DNA of 64,000 nucleotides, taken from contig NZ_CP073748.1 in NCBI RefSeq assembly GCF_024398035.1, positions 2,207,520 to 2,271,519 of the forward strand. Direction: 5' to 3'. This document shows positions 1,808 through 8,466 of the stretch, piece after piece (positions within the stretch are counted from its first letter, which is position 1; every line of letters begins with the position of its first letter). The stretch is from Kordiimonas sp. SCSIO 12603. GTDB lineage: Bacteria; Pseudomonadota; Alphaproteobacteria; Sphingomonadales; Kordiimonadaceae. Made by a program: the position numbers and the translations under genes. The notes beneath the pieces are model-generated. The model was given only the letters and a program-made list of their open reading frames with translations, was not told the origin of the DNA and made no database searches.

Positions 1808-4171
1808 TTAGAATTTCACGCCAAATGTCGCTGTAACAGTGCGTGGCGGGCCGTAGAACGCAGAAGCAATGCCTTCTAAGCCTAATGTAGACGCTGTGCC
1901 GTCGGCATTCGCGAAGTTGTAACCTGCAACAATATATTCTTTGTCAGTCAGGTTCTTACCGTGCAAGCCAATGCTGTATTTGCCGCCCTCAGATGTCCAG
2001 ACGATACTTGCGTCGAACAAAGAGTAAGCTGGTTGATCAAGGAAGGCATTTGGAACCTCAAACTGGTGTGTACGGCTTTTATAGGACCATGCACCTGAGA
2101 AAGAGATTTCGCCGTCTGAGTTCAGTAGTTCCAGTGGACGATTGTAAGTTAGGCGCAGGTTAGTGGAGAGGTCAGGCGTATTCTGTACCACTCGCTCATT
2201 GGCTACATCCTGAATTGTTGTTACGCCGCCTTCTGTCACAGCTGTTAGGAACTCATCATACTGAGCATCTACCCAGCCTAGAGAGAAAGTGGCAACAAGG
2301 CTATCGCCATCAACACCCATATCTGTGCCGAGAATTGCATTACCTTCAAGTTCAATACCTGTGATGCTTGCTTTACCAGCGTTTGTTGTCACGCCTGCGA
2401 AGCTATCGTTGATACCGTCACCATTTGTATCCACACCAACAGAGCCCGGAATTTGAACATCTGTATAATCGCTGTAGAAGAAGGCTAGGTTTGTTTGTAC
2501 ACGGCCATCAGCCCAGTTTGATTTCAGGCCGACCTCATAAGTAGTGATGTTTTCAGGATCAAACTGCATGAAATCAAAGATTTCAGCTTCTGAAACTGTA
2601 CCATCATTATTCAGGTCAGGCGCAGCTGTGGTTGCACCGCGTGGGTCAAACCCTCCACCTTTGAAACCTTGGCTAAAGGAGATGTAAGCCGTTTGATCGT
2701 CGTTTGGCTGCCATGAAAGGCTTACACGTGGTGTGAAGTCCTTAAATGTTTGTGAACCATTGAAATCTGATGTTGTCGCGATAAGTGTCGCGTCACCACC
2801 AAACGTATCAGAAAAACCGCCAATAAAGGTGCGGCGCAGCACGTTAGATGTACGTTTGTCGCTTGTGTAGCGGCCGCCTACGCTTAGCTCCAAGCCAGTA
2901 TCCATGCCAAAATGTTTTGCCAGGTCAAAGGTGAAGTCACCAAAGATAGACCATGATTTCGTACCTACATCACCGAAGGTGTTTGCGTTCAAACCAGGCA
3001 GGCCAATGGCTGCACCTGTTTGTGCAAGAAGTACATCAAATTCGTTGGAAGCATTGGCATCTAGGTAATAAAAACCAAGGAGACCGCTTATAGTCTCACC
3101 ACTATAGAGAAGTTGCAGTTCTTCGCTGAACTGATCGTTCTCATAAATTACTGGTACGTCAACATCAGCCACAGGTAGGCTATCGAAATCAATAGCTTGG
3201 AAGCTTTCGTCTTCACGGTATGCAAGAATGTTTTTAATGGTCCAGTTTTCGTTGATTTCATACTCTACGAGCATGGAGCCGCCATATTGTTCTGCCTCAT
3301 TACGAGCATCAAGGCCTGCGCGTGTATCAAACACATCATCTAGAACTGGTGCGCCGCTAAATAGGCCAGGAATCAAACGGTGACCTGATTTAGGATTACT
3401 CTTATCTTTTAGGTAATCTGCGGTAAAGCGGATGAAGAGAGCATCTGATGGTAAGATTTCGCTGCTTGCTCGGAACGCCAGAATATCTTTGTCATAATGC
3501 TCTGCGCCAGTTTCGATATTTTCACCGTATCCGTTACGCTGTAGGTATGCGCCAGAGGCACTAAAGCGAACAGTATCAGAAACTGGTAATTCAGCGGAAG
3601 CTACGATCTCGTGTTGACCAAAAGTACCGCCTGCCAAGTTAAGCTTGAGGGATGGTTCATCACCAATGCGCTTGGTTACATATTTGATCGCACCCCCGAT
3701 AGTGTTCCGGCCGTATAGTGTACCTTGCGGACCGCGAAGTACCTCAATACGCTCAACATCATATACATCAAGTACACCACCTTGTGGGCGGTTCAGATAG
3801 ACATCGTCAAGATAAATACCAACACCCGCTTCAAAACCAGCGACAGGGTCCTGCTGGCCAACGCCGCGGATGAAGGCTGTGATTGTTGTGTTGGTACCGC
3901 GAGAAACCTCAAGTGTTGTATTTGGAATACTTTGGGCAAGATAGGTGATGTCCGGCGCACCCAGCTTTGCGAGTTGCTCGCCGGATAAGGCAGTTACTGC
4001 GACAGGTACATCTTGTAACGATTCAGAACGGCGACGAGCCGTTACTTGAATTTCTTCCAGTTGCACATCATTGGAGCCGCTGTCTTGTGCGGAAACGGCG
4101 GGGGTTAGCGTTAATCCTGATAGGCAGGTACTCGCCATCATTACTGCCAAAGCAGTTTTATTCGTTCTCAT
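1808..4171 (-). CDS. TonB-dependent outer-membrane receptor
   Basis: A 787-residue outer-membrane active transporter. It has a signal peptide (cleavage near AVSAQD), a TonB-box region LEEIQVTARRR, a plug domain with the RGVGQQDP and RGPQGTLYGRNTIGGAI motifs, and a beta barrel ending in the aromatic FGVKF. The start has a strong GGGGAGGG site. Two acidic loops in the barrel read as calcium-type sites: DLNNDGTVSEAE (2582-2617) and DTNGDGIND (2405-2431). The gene is divergent from a TetR regulator and leads the ligase and hydrolase genes, so it probably imports the compound those enzymes use. It resembles the many-member TonB families of sphingomonads and Kordiimonadales; ligand unknown. Confidence 0.95.
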   Translation of the reverse strand: MRTNKTALAVMMASTCLSGLTLTPAVSAQDSGSNDVQLEEIQVTARRRSESLQDVPVAVTALSGEQLAKLGAPDITYLAQSIPNTTLEVSRGTNTTITAFIRGVGQQDPVAGFEAGVGIYLDDVYLNRPQGGVLDVYDVERIEVLRGPQGTLYGRNTIGGAIKYVTKRIGDEPSLKLNLAGGTFGQHEIVASAELPVSDTVRFSASGAYLQRNGYGENIETGAEHYDKDILAFRASSEILPSDALFIRFTADYLKDKSNPKSGHRLIPGLFSGAPVLDDVFDTRAGLDARNEAEQYGGSMLVEYEINENWTIKNILAYREDESFQAIDFDSLPVADVDVPVIYENDQFSEELQLLYSGETISGLLGFYYLDANASNEFDVLLAQTGAAIGLPGLNANTFGDVGTKSWSIFGDFTFDLAKHFGMDTGLELSVGGRYTSDKRTSNVLRRTFIGGFSDTFGGDATLIATTSDFNGSQTFKDFTPRVSLSWQPNDDQTAYISFSQGFKGGGFDPRGATTAAPDLNNDGTVSEAEIFDFMQFDPENITTYEVGLKSNWADGRVQTNLAFFYSDYTDVQIPGSVGVDTNGDGINDSFAGVTTNAGKASITGIELEGNAILGTDMGVDGDSLVATFSLGWVDAQYDEFLTAVTEGGVTTIQDVANERVVQNTPDLSTNLRLTYNRPLELLNSDGEISFSGAWSYKSRTHQFEVPNAFLDQPAYSLFDASIVWTSEGGKYSIGLHGKNLTDKEYIVAGYNFANADGTASTLGLEGIASAFYGPPRTVTATFGVKF
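2582..2617 (-). other. EF-hand-like loop inside TonB receptor
   Basis: The encoded DLNNDGTVSEAE has the spacing of an EF-hand calcium loop (D1, N3, D5, G6, E12). It lies in the barrel part, presumably in an extracellular loop. A second loop, DTNGDGIND, is encoded at 2405-2431. Confidence 0.5.
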
Positions 4172-5083: not shown

Positions 5084-7282
5084 ATGAAAACGATCTTAGC
5101 TGCCGCCCTTCTTGCGGCAAGCATGCCTGCAGTGGCGGAAGAATTTACAATTGATCGTCTCGTTGCGGGGCCGTCTATCAATGGCTCTAGTATGCGCGGC
5201 CTTCAAATGTCGCCTGACGGTAAGCGTATTACATTCTTGCGAGGCAAAGAAAACAACCGTAATCAGCTCGATTTATGGGAGTTTGATACAAAAAGCGGCA
5301 AGGCGAAGCTGCTGATTGATTCAAACGTTCTTCTGGGCGGAAAAAAAGAAGAGCTATCCGAGGAAGAAAAGGCGCGCCGTGAACGTCAGCGGATTGGTGG
5401 CATTTCTGGTATTACTCGGTATTTCTGGAGTAAGGATAGCAAATCACTGATGTTCCCTGTGGGGGGCGATGTTTATGTACTGCCGCTGGGCGGTAAGGTT
5501 AAGCGCCTTACAGATACACCAGAGTTTGAAACGGATATCCGTTTCAGCCCTAAAAGCACTTATGTTTCTTTTGTTCGTAACCGTGAAGTTTACATTGTAA
5601 ACGTTAAAACCGGTGAAGAGACCAAGCTGACATCAGGCTCGACCGATACAATTGCTAATGGTATGGCTGAGTTCGTAGCGCAAGAAGAACTAGGCCGCTT
5701 TACAGGGTATTGGTGGTCTCCGGACGAAACCAAAATTGCTTTTGAGCAATTTGATGAGAGCGATGTAATTATTAAGGATCGTTACGAAGTAAAAGGTGAC
5801 GGTTCGGTAACATCTATCAAACAGCGCTATCCTGAAGCAGGTACTACGAACGTTACATACAAACTCGGTGTTGTTTCTGTTGCGGATAAATCGGTTGATT
5901 GGATTGATGCGGGTGGTGATCAGGATACGTATCTTGGTCGTGTGAACTGGACACCAGATAGTCAAACGGTAATTTACCAGCGCCTCAATCGCCCACAGAC
6001 GCAGCTTGATATGGTGCTAGCTGCAGCTGATGGTTCCAGCCAGCGTACGCTGCTTACAGAACAATCAGATATTTGGGTAAATCTGCATAATATTCTGCGT
6101 TTCACAAACGATGGCAACAATATGTTGTGGGCTAGTGAGCGTACTGGTTTCCGGCATCTTTACAATGTGAATATGGAAACTGGTGAAGCAACACCAATTA
6201 CTTCTGGTGACTGGGTTGTGAGCAGCGTGAACCGTGTGGATGAAGAAAATGGTACTATTTACTTCTCTGGTTTTAAAGATAGCCCGATTGAAAGCCATCT
6301 TTATTCTGTTCCAATGGCCGGTGGTGATATCACCCGGATTACCAAAGAAGAGGGATGGCACGGTGCACGTGTAGGTGATGGTTTCTTCATTGATAACTTC
6401 TCAAGCCCGACCCAACCCCCACAGATTGTCGTTAAAGACCTGAAAGATGGTTCAGTTCGTTTCGCGATCAACGAGAATAAGCTGGATGGTAACCACCCAT
6501 ACGGTAAGTATTTAGACGGTGCAGCGAAACAAAGCTTTGGTACGATTAAAGCAAGTGACGGTAGCGACCTTTATTATCGCCTATACCTGCCACCAAGCAT
6601 GGAAGAGGGTAAAAAGTACCCGGCTATTATGGCGCCCTATGGTGGCCCGCACGGTCAGAGCGTACGGAAGACATGGAGTGTGAACTTCAATGAAATCCTT
6701 GCACGTAAAGGCTTTGTTGTAATGGTTCTTGATAACCGAGGCATGTGGAACCGAGGTATTGAGTTTGAAGGCCATATCAAAAATGCTATGGGCACGGTTG
6801 AGGTTGAAGATCAAGTTACTGGTGCTAACTACCTAAAAACACTTGATTTTATCGATGGTGATAAAATTGGTATGTGGGGTTGGTCTTATGGTGGTTACAT
6901 GACCATCATCAACATGTTCAAAGCACCTGATGTATTTAAAGCTGGTGTATCTGTTGCTCCGGTTACGGATTGGCGCCTTTATGATACAGCTTACACAGAG
7001 CGCTATCTGAGCCACCCGAATGATCCAGGTAATGTGTATGAAAACTCATCTGTGTTTAAATATGCAGATAACTTCAAAGGTGACCTGCTATTAATCCACG
7101 GTATGGCAGATGATAACGTGTTCTTCGATAACGCAGTTAAGCTTATGGCGACATTGCAGAAAGAAGGAAAGCCATTTGAGCTGATGACATACCCCGGCAA
7201 GAAGCACGGTATTCGTGGCGAAAATACCCGGAAGCATTTATGGAAATTGGCGCTAGATTTCTTTGAACGTAAGCTCAAATAA
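5084..7282 (+). CDS. Dipeptidyl-peptidase IV-like S9 peptidase
   Basis: A 732-residue exported serine peptidase that should release X-Pro dipeptides in the periplasm. It has a signal peptide (cut near AVAEE), an N-terminal beta-propeller, and a C-terminal alpha/beta hydrolase domain with Ser601 (GWSYGGY), Asp676 (ADDNVFF) and His708 (KKHGIRG). The propeller carries AQEELGRFTGYWWSPD, the double-glutamate motif that anchors the substrate amino terminus in DPP IV, which favours DPP IV over an oligopeptidase. The start has a GGGGGAG site. A strong terminator follows. Confidence 0.93.
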   Translation: MKTILAAALLAASMPAVAEEFTIDRLVAGPSINGSSMRGLQMSPDGKRITFLRGKENNRNQLDLWEFDTKSGKAKLLIDSNVLLGGKKEELSEEEKARRERQRIGGISGITRYFWSKDSKSLMFPVGGDVYVLPLGGKVKRLTDTPEFETDIRFSPKSTYVSFVRNREVYIVNVKTGEETKLTSGSTDTIANGMAEFVAQEELGRFTGYWWSPDETKIAFEQFDESDVIIKDRYEVKGDGSVTSIKQRYPEAGTTNVTYKLGVVSVADKSVDWIDAGGDQDTYLGRVNWTPDSQTVIYQRLNRPQTQLDMVLAAADGSSQRTLLTEQSDIWVNLHNILRFTNDGNNMLWASERTGFRHLYNVNMETGEATPITSGDWVVSSVNRVDEENGTIYFSGFKDSPIESHLYSVPMAGGDITRITKEEGWHGARVGDGFFIDNFSSPTQPPQIVVKDLKDGSVRFAINENKLDGNHPYGKYLDGAAKQSFGTIKASDGSDLYYRLYLPPSMEEGKKYPAIMAPYGGPHGQSVRKTWSVNFNEILARKGFVVMVLDNRGMWNRGIEFEGHIKNAMGTVEVEDQVTGANYLKTLDFIDGDKIGMWGWSYGGYMTIINMFKAPDVFKAGVSVAPVTDWRLYDTAYTERYLSHPNDPGNVYENSSVFKYADNFKGDLLLIHGMADDNVFFDNAVKLMATLQKEGKPFELMTYPGKKHGIRGENTRKHLWKLALDFFERKLK

Positions 7283-7305
7283 GAAATTAATGCTGAATAA
7301 AACAT

Positions 7306-7336
7306 GAAAAAGGGGCAGTTTTCTGCCCTTTTTTTA
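7306..7336 (+). terminator. Rho-independent terminator after the S9 peptidase gene
   Basis: The hairpin AAAAAGGGGCAG / CTGCCCTTTTTTT with a TTTT loop lies 24 bases past the stop codon and ends in a seven-base T run. Confidence 0.9.
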
Positions 7337-7461
7337 TATGAAAAATCAATGAGATAAAAGTTTCTAATGTAACTTTAACAGAATCTTGCTTGATTTATTT
7401 AATTACTGGACTAGATAGTCTATTAAGTCATCGGCGTGACTGTTCTGAGTTATAATCAAAC

Positions 7462-7588
7462 AGAGGGACGTCGAAACAGCCTGTTATCAGGAGGGTATAT
7501 CTTCCTTCCTCCCTGATTAGACTTCTGATAATAGGCACCTGGCTGAAGCCGAAGGGGGTGTCTGGATTCTCCCCTTCGGCTTTTCTTT
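7462..7588 (+). ncRNA. Candidate sRNA with anti-Shine-Dalgarno loop
   Basis: The 7337-7593 gap has no gene but is highly structured. A TATAAT hexamer at 7451-7456 precedes a 12-bp stem, GCCTGTTATCAG (7479-7490) with CTGATAATAGGC (7525-7536, one G-U). Its 34-base loop holds the pyrimidine run CTTCCTTCCTCCC, complementary to ribosome binding sites and partly able to pair with the GGAGGG at 7490-7495. A classical terminator follows at 7548-7588. This looks like an independent small RNA of about 125 bases. CCUCC loops are known from alphaproteobacterial cuckoo/CcsR-type sRNAs; membership is a guess. Confidence 0.6.
7548..7588 (+). terminator. Rho-independent terminator of the candidate sRNA
   Basis: Arms GCCGAAGGGG (7548-7557) and CCCCTTCGGC (7571-7580) match perfectly over 10 bp and are followed by TTTTCTTT. 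It points plus-strand, towards the convergent hydrolase gene, so it ends a plus transcript starting after the peptidase terminator. Confidence 0.85.
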
Positions 7589-7593
7589 ATGTT

Positions 7594-8466
7594 TTATGCA
7601 GCTAAAGTGCGGTCATACACGGGTTTGATAGAATCTAAAATCGTACGTACCGTGCCTTTAAACTGTTCTACATGGAACATATGATCGGCATTTGGCAGGG
7701 AAATAAAACGCCCATTTGCAAAATTATCGGCAATCTTCATATTTGCTTCGACAGGTAGAAAATGATCATGTTCTCCAGTGAAGACAGTGACATCCATATC
7801 ATTTGGCATTTTGCTCAAATCAGTATTAGCATGATCCAGAATACGCTTGGTATTATGCTTAAACTGTTCTTTGATGCCGCAATTGGCGTTTAAGAGGGCG
7901 TGACGTAACTTATCTGCGGTTAAGCGCGCCAATCTATTAGTTTCTCTTAATGCTGGATTGGTCATCAGGTCGGTAAAGCTCTCGGCAAACTCTTCGGTTT
8001 TATCCCACTCCAGTAGGAACAATAGATGGTTGAATGCATATTCAAGCCTGTCGGGCATTTTATCCATTGCGGAACCAAGAACTAGGTGTTCAATGTTGTT
8101 ATACATCTGAGCATAGCGCATTGCGATAATGCTACCGTAACTACAGCCCAGCATATTGACGCGTTCCGCGACGCCCAATTCACAGAGGCCGTGATGAATG
8201 GCTTGGCAGATGAATTCAAAGTCATATTCATGCGGTAATACACCAGTTTCACCGTTGCCTGGCGTATCGACAGTAATTACCCAAGTTTCCTGGCTGAACG
8301 CATTGCTTAATTTTTCAACGGCCGTGATGTTTTGGAAGGCACCGCCAATGAATACGAGCGGTAACGTGGTAGAATTGGGTGCATATTCTTTCATATGCAC
8401 AGGGAAACCTTGATAGGAAAACCGGTGGAATGTTCCTTCCGGGGAAATCTTTGTAGCATAAGTCAT
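7594..8466 (-). CDS. Alpha/beta-fold hydrolase
   Basis: A 290-residue cytoplasmic protein. The nucleophile elbow is GCSYGS, the acid is likely in FTGEHDHF, and the histidine in NADHMFH. The segment TVDTPGNGETG fits the oxyanion neighbourhood. The start has an AGAAAGAGAG purine run upstream. The gene stands alone, convergent with the sRNA locus. The family covers esterases, lipases, haloperoxidases and C-C hydrolases; no specific substrate can be assigned. Confidence 0.85.
   Translation of the reverse strand: MTYATKISPEGTFHRFSYQGFPVHMKEYAPNSTTLPLVFIGGAFQNITAVEKLSNAFSQETWVITVDTPGNGETGVLPHEYDFEFICQAIHHGLCELGVAERVNMLGCSYGSIIAMRYAQMYNNIEHLVLGSAMDKMPDRLEYAFNHLLFLLEWDKTEEFAESFTDLMTNPALRETNRLARLTADKLRHALLNANCGIKEQFKHNTKRILDHANTDLSKMPNDMDVTVFTGEHDHFLPVEANMKIADNFANGRFISLPNADHMFHVEQFKGTVRTILDSIKPVYDRTLAA

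Follow-up and report, generated by a model that had tools for sequence, protein, structure and literature searches.

Within the window, by which we mean the whole 64,000-nucleotide stretch of Kordiimonas sp. SCSIO 12603 DNA that was analysed, an intergenic gap at 7283-7594 lies between an S9 peptidase gene upstream (5084-7282, + strand) and a convergent alpha/beta hydrolase gene (7594-8466, - strand), the latter being a neighbour in only part of the genus and lying outside the RNA described here. The + strand of this gap hosts a predicted small RNA of ~120 nt (7463-7586), whose transcription start is placed from a -10 element, TATAAT, at 7451-7456, as first described. The gap was originally described as gene-free, and the open reading frames that overlap the element are indeed just 21-36 aa long, none of them a real gene. 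The main hairpin (7479-7536, + strand), supported by folding, orthologous hairpins and covariation, pairs 7479-7493 with 7522-7536. This includes the 12-bp stem with one G-U pair and a 34-base loop (7491-7524) of the original prediction, which is present as 7479-7490 / 7525-7536 and extends to 15 bp; weak inner pairs above the stem close an apical loop of 13 nt, TTCCTTCCTCCCT (7502-7514). An intrinsic terminator with its U-run follows at 7545-7586 (+ strand), with the hairpin itself at 7545-7583 and then TTTTCTTT, and relatives carry a counterpart at the same relative place. Compared with shuffled sequences, the terminator by itself reaches z -3.40, in keeping with its earlier description as strong, and the paired hairpins (138 nt) are also more stable than shuffles (z -3.06; 1/200 equally good). 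Loose hairpin criteria gave 17 matches in 2.0 Mb of strand sequence (the window plus 80 prfC loci), 3 of them family members; within the window the sRNA hairpin is the sole match, and the 78 of these contigs that lie outside Kordiimonas gave few matches near prfC. Taken together with the conservation described below, this leaves us with very little doubt that the gap encodes a real RNA element.

BLASTN against 59 related genomes recovered a near-identical copy (99%) in G016 only, the other matches being weak (E 0.02-0.09). We therefore read the gap by synteny, with the flanking S9 peptidase, alpha/beta hydrolase and prfC as anchors. Read in this way, 16 of the 19 Kordiimonas genomes possess a long hairpin between the S9 peptidase gene and prfC, with a terminator following, and no copy was detectable at the locus in the other three, among them G007, in which no prfC was found. 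Other copies of the hydrolase in the genus, whether beside tRNA-Asn or at further loci, have no such RNA. The loops of the genus are single-stranded, 13-25 nt long, C-rich and mostly pyrimidine, and a C-rich pyrimidine loop is found in all relatives. The stems of different subfamilies, by contrast, share almost no common sequence, and their pairing is nonetheless kept. Compensatory change in related genomes, on which the original prediction had been staked, is seen most clearly in subfamily 2, where the eight alignable members show double changes with pairing kept at 15 of 32 pairs, a degree of covariation reached by 0/500 shuffles, and where 96.4% of cells are paired, versus 31-46% for structures with the partner displaced by 1-3 bases. 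MAFFT alignments that combined the 16 hairpins (A2, A4) or several hairpin types (A6) were left out of these counts, their arms having been judged unreliable. A covariance model built from the eight members of subfamily 2 alone (R1) matches three members of subfamily 1 (E 1.7e-8, 9.5e-6 and 1.5e-5). Run on 29 family genomes, R1 picks up subfamily 2 and some paralogues and misses the window copy, so that it is position and architecture that link the window copy to subfamily 2. Sequence search thus reaches just one near-identical genome; position and structure trace the RNA through four genera.

We note that a different RNA-like element lies 3' of the S9 peptidase gene in seven Kordiimonas genomes (L011:3800-3885, L014:3797-3882 and L018:3811-3896, and, on the - strand, L016:1290-1375, L019:1304-1389, L022:1289-1374 and L023:1291-1376). 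It has long GGGCGGC/GCCGCCC arms around a near-invariant core, GCGCATCGGAATCCCTARTTCGCGAGC; an FNR/FixK-like box (TTGAC-N4-GTCAA) precedes the element and a gene for a small protein follows it. It has no Rfam match and is absent from the window. A second C-loop hairpin RNA, probably a sibling sRNA, was seen at another locus in G015, G003, G014 and G006 (L177, L179, L180 and L183), where a GACGG hairpin is followed by a GGCCG-YCCTGRY stem with loop CTCTCCCCCCTCCCCC and then by a terminator.

Signals in the window that would fit a free-standing transcript are the TATAAT, a conserved palindrome and the terminator; the -35 region (about 7428-7433) is poor, and a strict sigma-70 scan called no promoter at this site. 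When relatives are aligned by eye to the palindrome, promoters appear at the same place, such as TTGACA-17-TAAATA (G011) and TTGACG-17-TATTCG (G001). The palindrome itself, TGGACTAGATAGTCTA (7407-7422, + strand), lies directly 5' of the sRNA promoter and belongs to a pattern confined to the genus. Its shared form, TRGACTANNTAGTCYA, is common to eight genus members just 5' of the -35, the K. marina copy being altered, and an extended pattern, GACTANNTAGTCYANTAA, was found in 7 of 396 genomes of the order, every one of them in Kordiimonas. It marks the aligned sRNA promoters in six of those seven genomes and also sits at an sRNA in the seventh (G002), with a single extra copy in one genome, ahead of another gene. 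Since this palindrome is confined to the genus and found at sRNA promoters, it is a dedicated operator-like element, and its sharing by eight members beside the promoter suggests that transcription of the sRNA is probably regulated. The palindrome is probably a transcription-factor binding site. Operator-like palindromes were also seen elsewhere (L031, L033, L058): ahead of an efflux-like gene with a TetR-like neighbour (two copies), ahead of an acyl-CoA dehydrogenase-like gene, and ahead of another gene in G011, the identities of the efflux-like, TetR-like and acyl-CoA dehydrogenase-like neighbours in the window's own genome having been read by eye. Such look-alikes may serve as a pointer to the regulator family. 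Because in the same genome they precede the efflux-like gene by the TetR-like gene and the acyl-CoA dehydrogenase-like gene, our guess would be a TetR-type regulator. The promoter of subfamily 2 is of another type, reading CTTGAA-N17-CATATA in most members, and in several members a looser TTGACTnAnTTAGT-like element lies farther upstream.

The apical loop at 7502-7514 (+ strand) presents a pyrimidine stretch, UUCCUUCCUCCCU, that resembles the anti-Shine-Dalgarno (anti-SD) sequence, and its bases are computed to be 93-100% unpaired. Across the genus, 15 of 16 members have loops with a mean unpaired probability of 0.89-1.00, G011 being the lone substantially occluded case (0.46). It had been proposed that a purine run in the same stem could mask the loop and so act as a switch. 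Forcing the run at 7486-7495 to pair with the loop, however, yields a fold that is 7.4 kcal/mol less stable in the window, and this cost, together with the open loop and the single occluded relative, leaves the switch unsupported. Instead, the RNA looks built for holding its loop open. The central proposal, that of a small RNA whose anti-SD pyrimidine loop is exposed, finds good support in an architecture found in 16/19 genus genomes and three outgroup genera, in the compensatory changes and in the open loops of the relatives.

The loop copies the 16S rRNA anti-SD tail, and so can pair with ribosome-binding sites that consist of long purine runs. In line with this, the window loop pairs with the 25 bases before start codons at a median of -6.5 kcal/mol, versus -3.3 kcal/mol for gene interiors (p 2e-6), a comparison made within the window. 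Among 368 ORFs from the window plus a 388-kb genome sample, the best partners have long purine-rich SDs, and three of the four TonB-dependent receptors fall within the top nine. One of these three, the receptor at 1808-4171 (- strand), is the top target within the window; its SD, GGGGAGGGA, is identical in K. marina and similar in G017. We note that the SD region of this receptor is very long (CTGGGGAGGGA) and that it is identical in the K. marina locus L017. The ribosomal tail itself favours TonB receptors in the same way (p 0.04, n=4), and any C/U-rich oligomer pairs with SDs; these receptors are thus candidate targets.

The reading that we favour, and consider probable, is a trans-acting anti-SD sRNA. 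The observations amount to a conserved structured RNA element with an open pyrimidine loop, a conserved palindrome of its own and, in the window, pairing that favours start regions over gene interiors; that the RNA is transcribed, which mRNAs it targets and represses, whether it needs Hfq and which regulator controls it are inferred. In such a scheme, a transcript of ~120 nt ended by the intrinsic terminator would use its long rigid stem to display a single-stranded C/U-rich loop of 13-25 nt, which would chemically mimic the anti-Shine-Dalgarno tail of 16S rRNA. The loop would pair with mRNAs that have an unusually long purine-run ribosome-binding site, such as GGGGAGGGA, and block the initiation of translation, probably with the assistance of Hfq, and the palindromic operator ahead of the promoter would control transcription of the sRNA. 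By analogy with SisA, MmgR and NfeR1, the effect is likely to be translational repression of mRNAs with long purine-rich SDs, probably Hfq-assisted.

A literature search on Kordiimonadaceae found no sRNA study. The original prediction could not place the RNA among known families, and our Rfam scans of the window and its relatives likewise gave no family at gathering and none credible up to E 10; the weak matches in that range (mir-H7, snoR138, STnc40 at the upstream terminator, and SorX in one relative) were judged to be chance. Several anti-SD RNAs of alphaproteobacteria nevertheless resemble it in kind. In the alphar14 group (NfeR1, SmelA075, the 'cuckoo RNA', often named together with Rhodobacter CcsR1-4), CCUCCUCCC lies in unpaired regions and the stems have diverged (PMC10746234, PMC3927594); the Kordiimonas RNA likewise keeps its anti-SD loop unpaired while its stems diverge. 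An alphar14 RNA, however, is built of three or four hairpins that each leave the exact CCUCCUCCC unpaired, whereas the Kordiimonas RNA has a single hairpin, whose C/U loop is longer and variable, followed by a terminator. The window loop reads CTTCCTTCCTCCC, the terminator loop lacks the motif, and no alphar14 model matches at gathering or up to E 10. Closest in layout to the cuckoo RNAs is an RNA seen at a locus apart from the prfC element in G021 and G028 (L168, L169), which has two consecutive hairpins that each carry a CTCCCCTCC-type loop; the second hairpin is the terminator. CcsR RNAs derive from an mRNA 3' UTR (PMC8625941), an origin that the Kordiimonadaceae outgroup copies may share. 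AbcR1/AbcR2 (alphar15) are also alphaproteobacterial RNAs with anti-SD motifs and have many metabolic mRNAs as targets (PMC8844928); the Rfam scans matched no such model.

The alphaR8 family (suhB, RF00519; MmgR, SisA-D) combines an anti-SD core, UUUCCUCCCU, with a Rho-independent terminator, and its member SisA represses many mRNAs through this core (PMC12559287). The window loop contains CUUCCUCCCU, identical to the core at 9/10 letters, but this counterpart sits inside the loop of a 15-bp stem, whereas in alphaR8 a weak hairpin is followed by the core, which is single-stranded. Furthermore, the suhB covariance model has no match at 7460-7590 up to E 10, and in place of the N-formylglutamate amidohydrolase linkage found in most species the neighbours here are the S9 peptidase, the alpha/beta hydrolase and then prfC. 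The genome's true alphaR8 lies at a different locus (G000:C1:1351680-1351751, L202; core GTTTCCTCCCTG), where it scores 56 bits, over the cut-off, as alphaR8 does in 17 of the 19 genus genomes. The window RNA is therefore a second anti-SD RNA of the cell rather than alphaR8, and we assign it to a new and uncatalogued family within a known kind, the anti-SD loop sRNA.

The presence of two such RNAs bears on a different reading, in which the loop acts mainly in a sponge relationship, either capturing one or more G/A-rich small RNAs or being itself the target of a CrfA-type G/A-rich sponge. In Caulobacter, the G/A-rich stem-loop of CrfA captures the UUUCCUCCCU core of SisA-D (PMC12559287), and since the alphaR8 of this same genome carries such a core, a G/A-rich partner would bind both RNAs. 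A sponge role does not exclude mRNA targets, however, and as an explanation of the main function we regard it as unlikely.

Beyond the genus, a comparable hairpin, with loops such as ACCTCCCCTCCCTCCCCTCCCC, lies upstream of prfC in four genomes from three other genera of the family (G019, G021, G028 and G023); the prfC of six other family genomes has no such hairpin. In the three of these genomes whose upstream gene was tested (G019, G021, G023), the hairpin is found close behind the stop codon of a Phasin_2 gene, and G021 has peptidase, phasin, RNA and prfC in that order. Based on this gene order, the RNA is likely to have begun as the 3' UTR of a phasin mRNA, or still to be one in the outgroup genera, with the phasin later lost at the Kordiimonas locus. 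The link of MmgR to PHB and phasins (PMC8401924) is a parallel to these outgroup copies. The same position shortly after the phasin stop codon would also fit an element that just ends or protects the upstream mRNA and is no independent regulator, but the genus locus has no upstream phasin, and there a terminator-like hairpin belonging to the S9 peptidase gene precedes the main hairpin by ~150 nt, while the RNA has a promoter region of its own with the conserved palindrome. In addition, a C-rich loop of 13-25 nt is unnecessary for termination or protection, yet it has been kept while the stems changed. A role confined to the 3' end of an mRNA consequently appears quite improbable.

That the C-rich pyrimidine composition of the loop is kept more strictly than its exact sequence would suit a landing site for a pyrimidine-binding protein, with base-pairing secondary, but a base-pairing loop that fits many purine runs would give the same pattern, and we consider protein binding very improbable as the principal role. 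Finally, a chance hairpin without function, for which one could cite the BLASTN match in one near-identical genome only and the occurrence of loose-criteria hairpins about once per 140 kb of strand sequence (the three family members set aside), is refuted by the comparative data, which place the element in 16 genus genomes and three outgroup genera, at one syntenic place and with compensatory changes, and its probability is close to nil.

The trans-acting anti-SD sRNA favoured here would add an uncatalogued family to the anti-SD RNAs of alphaproteobacteria. A bolder and distinctly speculative scenario, which we hold to be possible though doubtful, is that of a family-wide anti-SD RNA that arose from the 3' UTR of an mRNA for phasin, a carbon-storage granule protein, and turned into a free-standing Kordiimonas gene with its own operator, whose C-rich loop, as opposed to an exact motif, would broadly mimic the ribosomal anti-SD tail and tune down mRNAs with over-strong SDs, such as those of TonB receptors. 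The apparent passage of a phasin 3' UTR into a free-standing gene under operator control would offer a traceable example of the birth of an sRNA, and a loop that keeps its composition over its sequence makes it possible to test directly the degree of target choice that an anti-SD sRNA needs.
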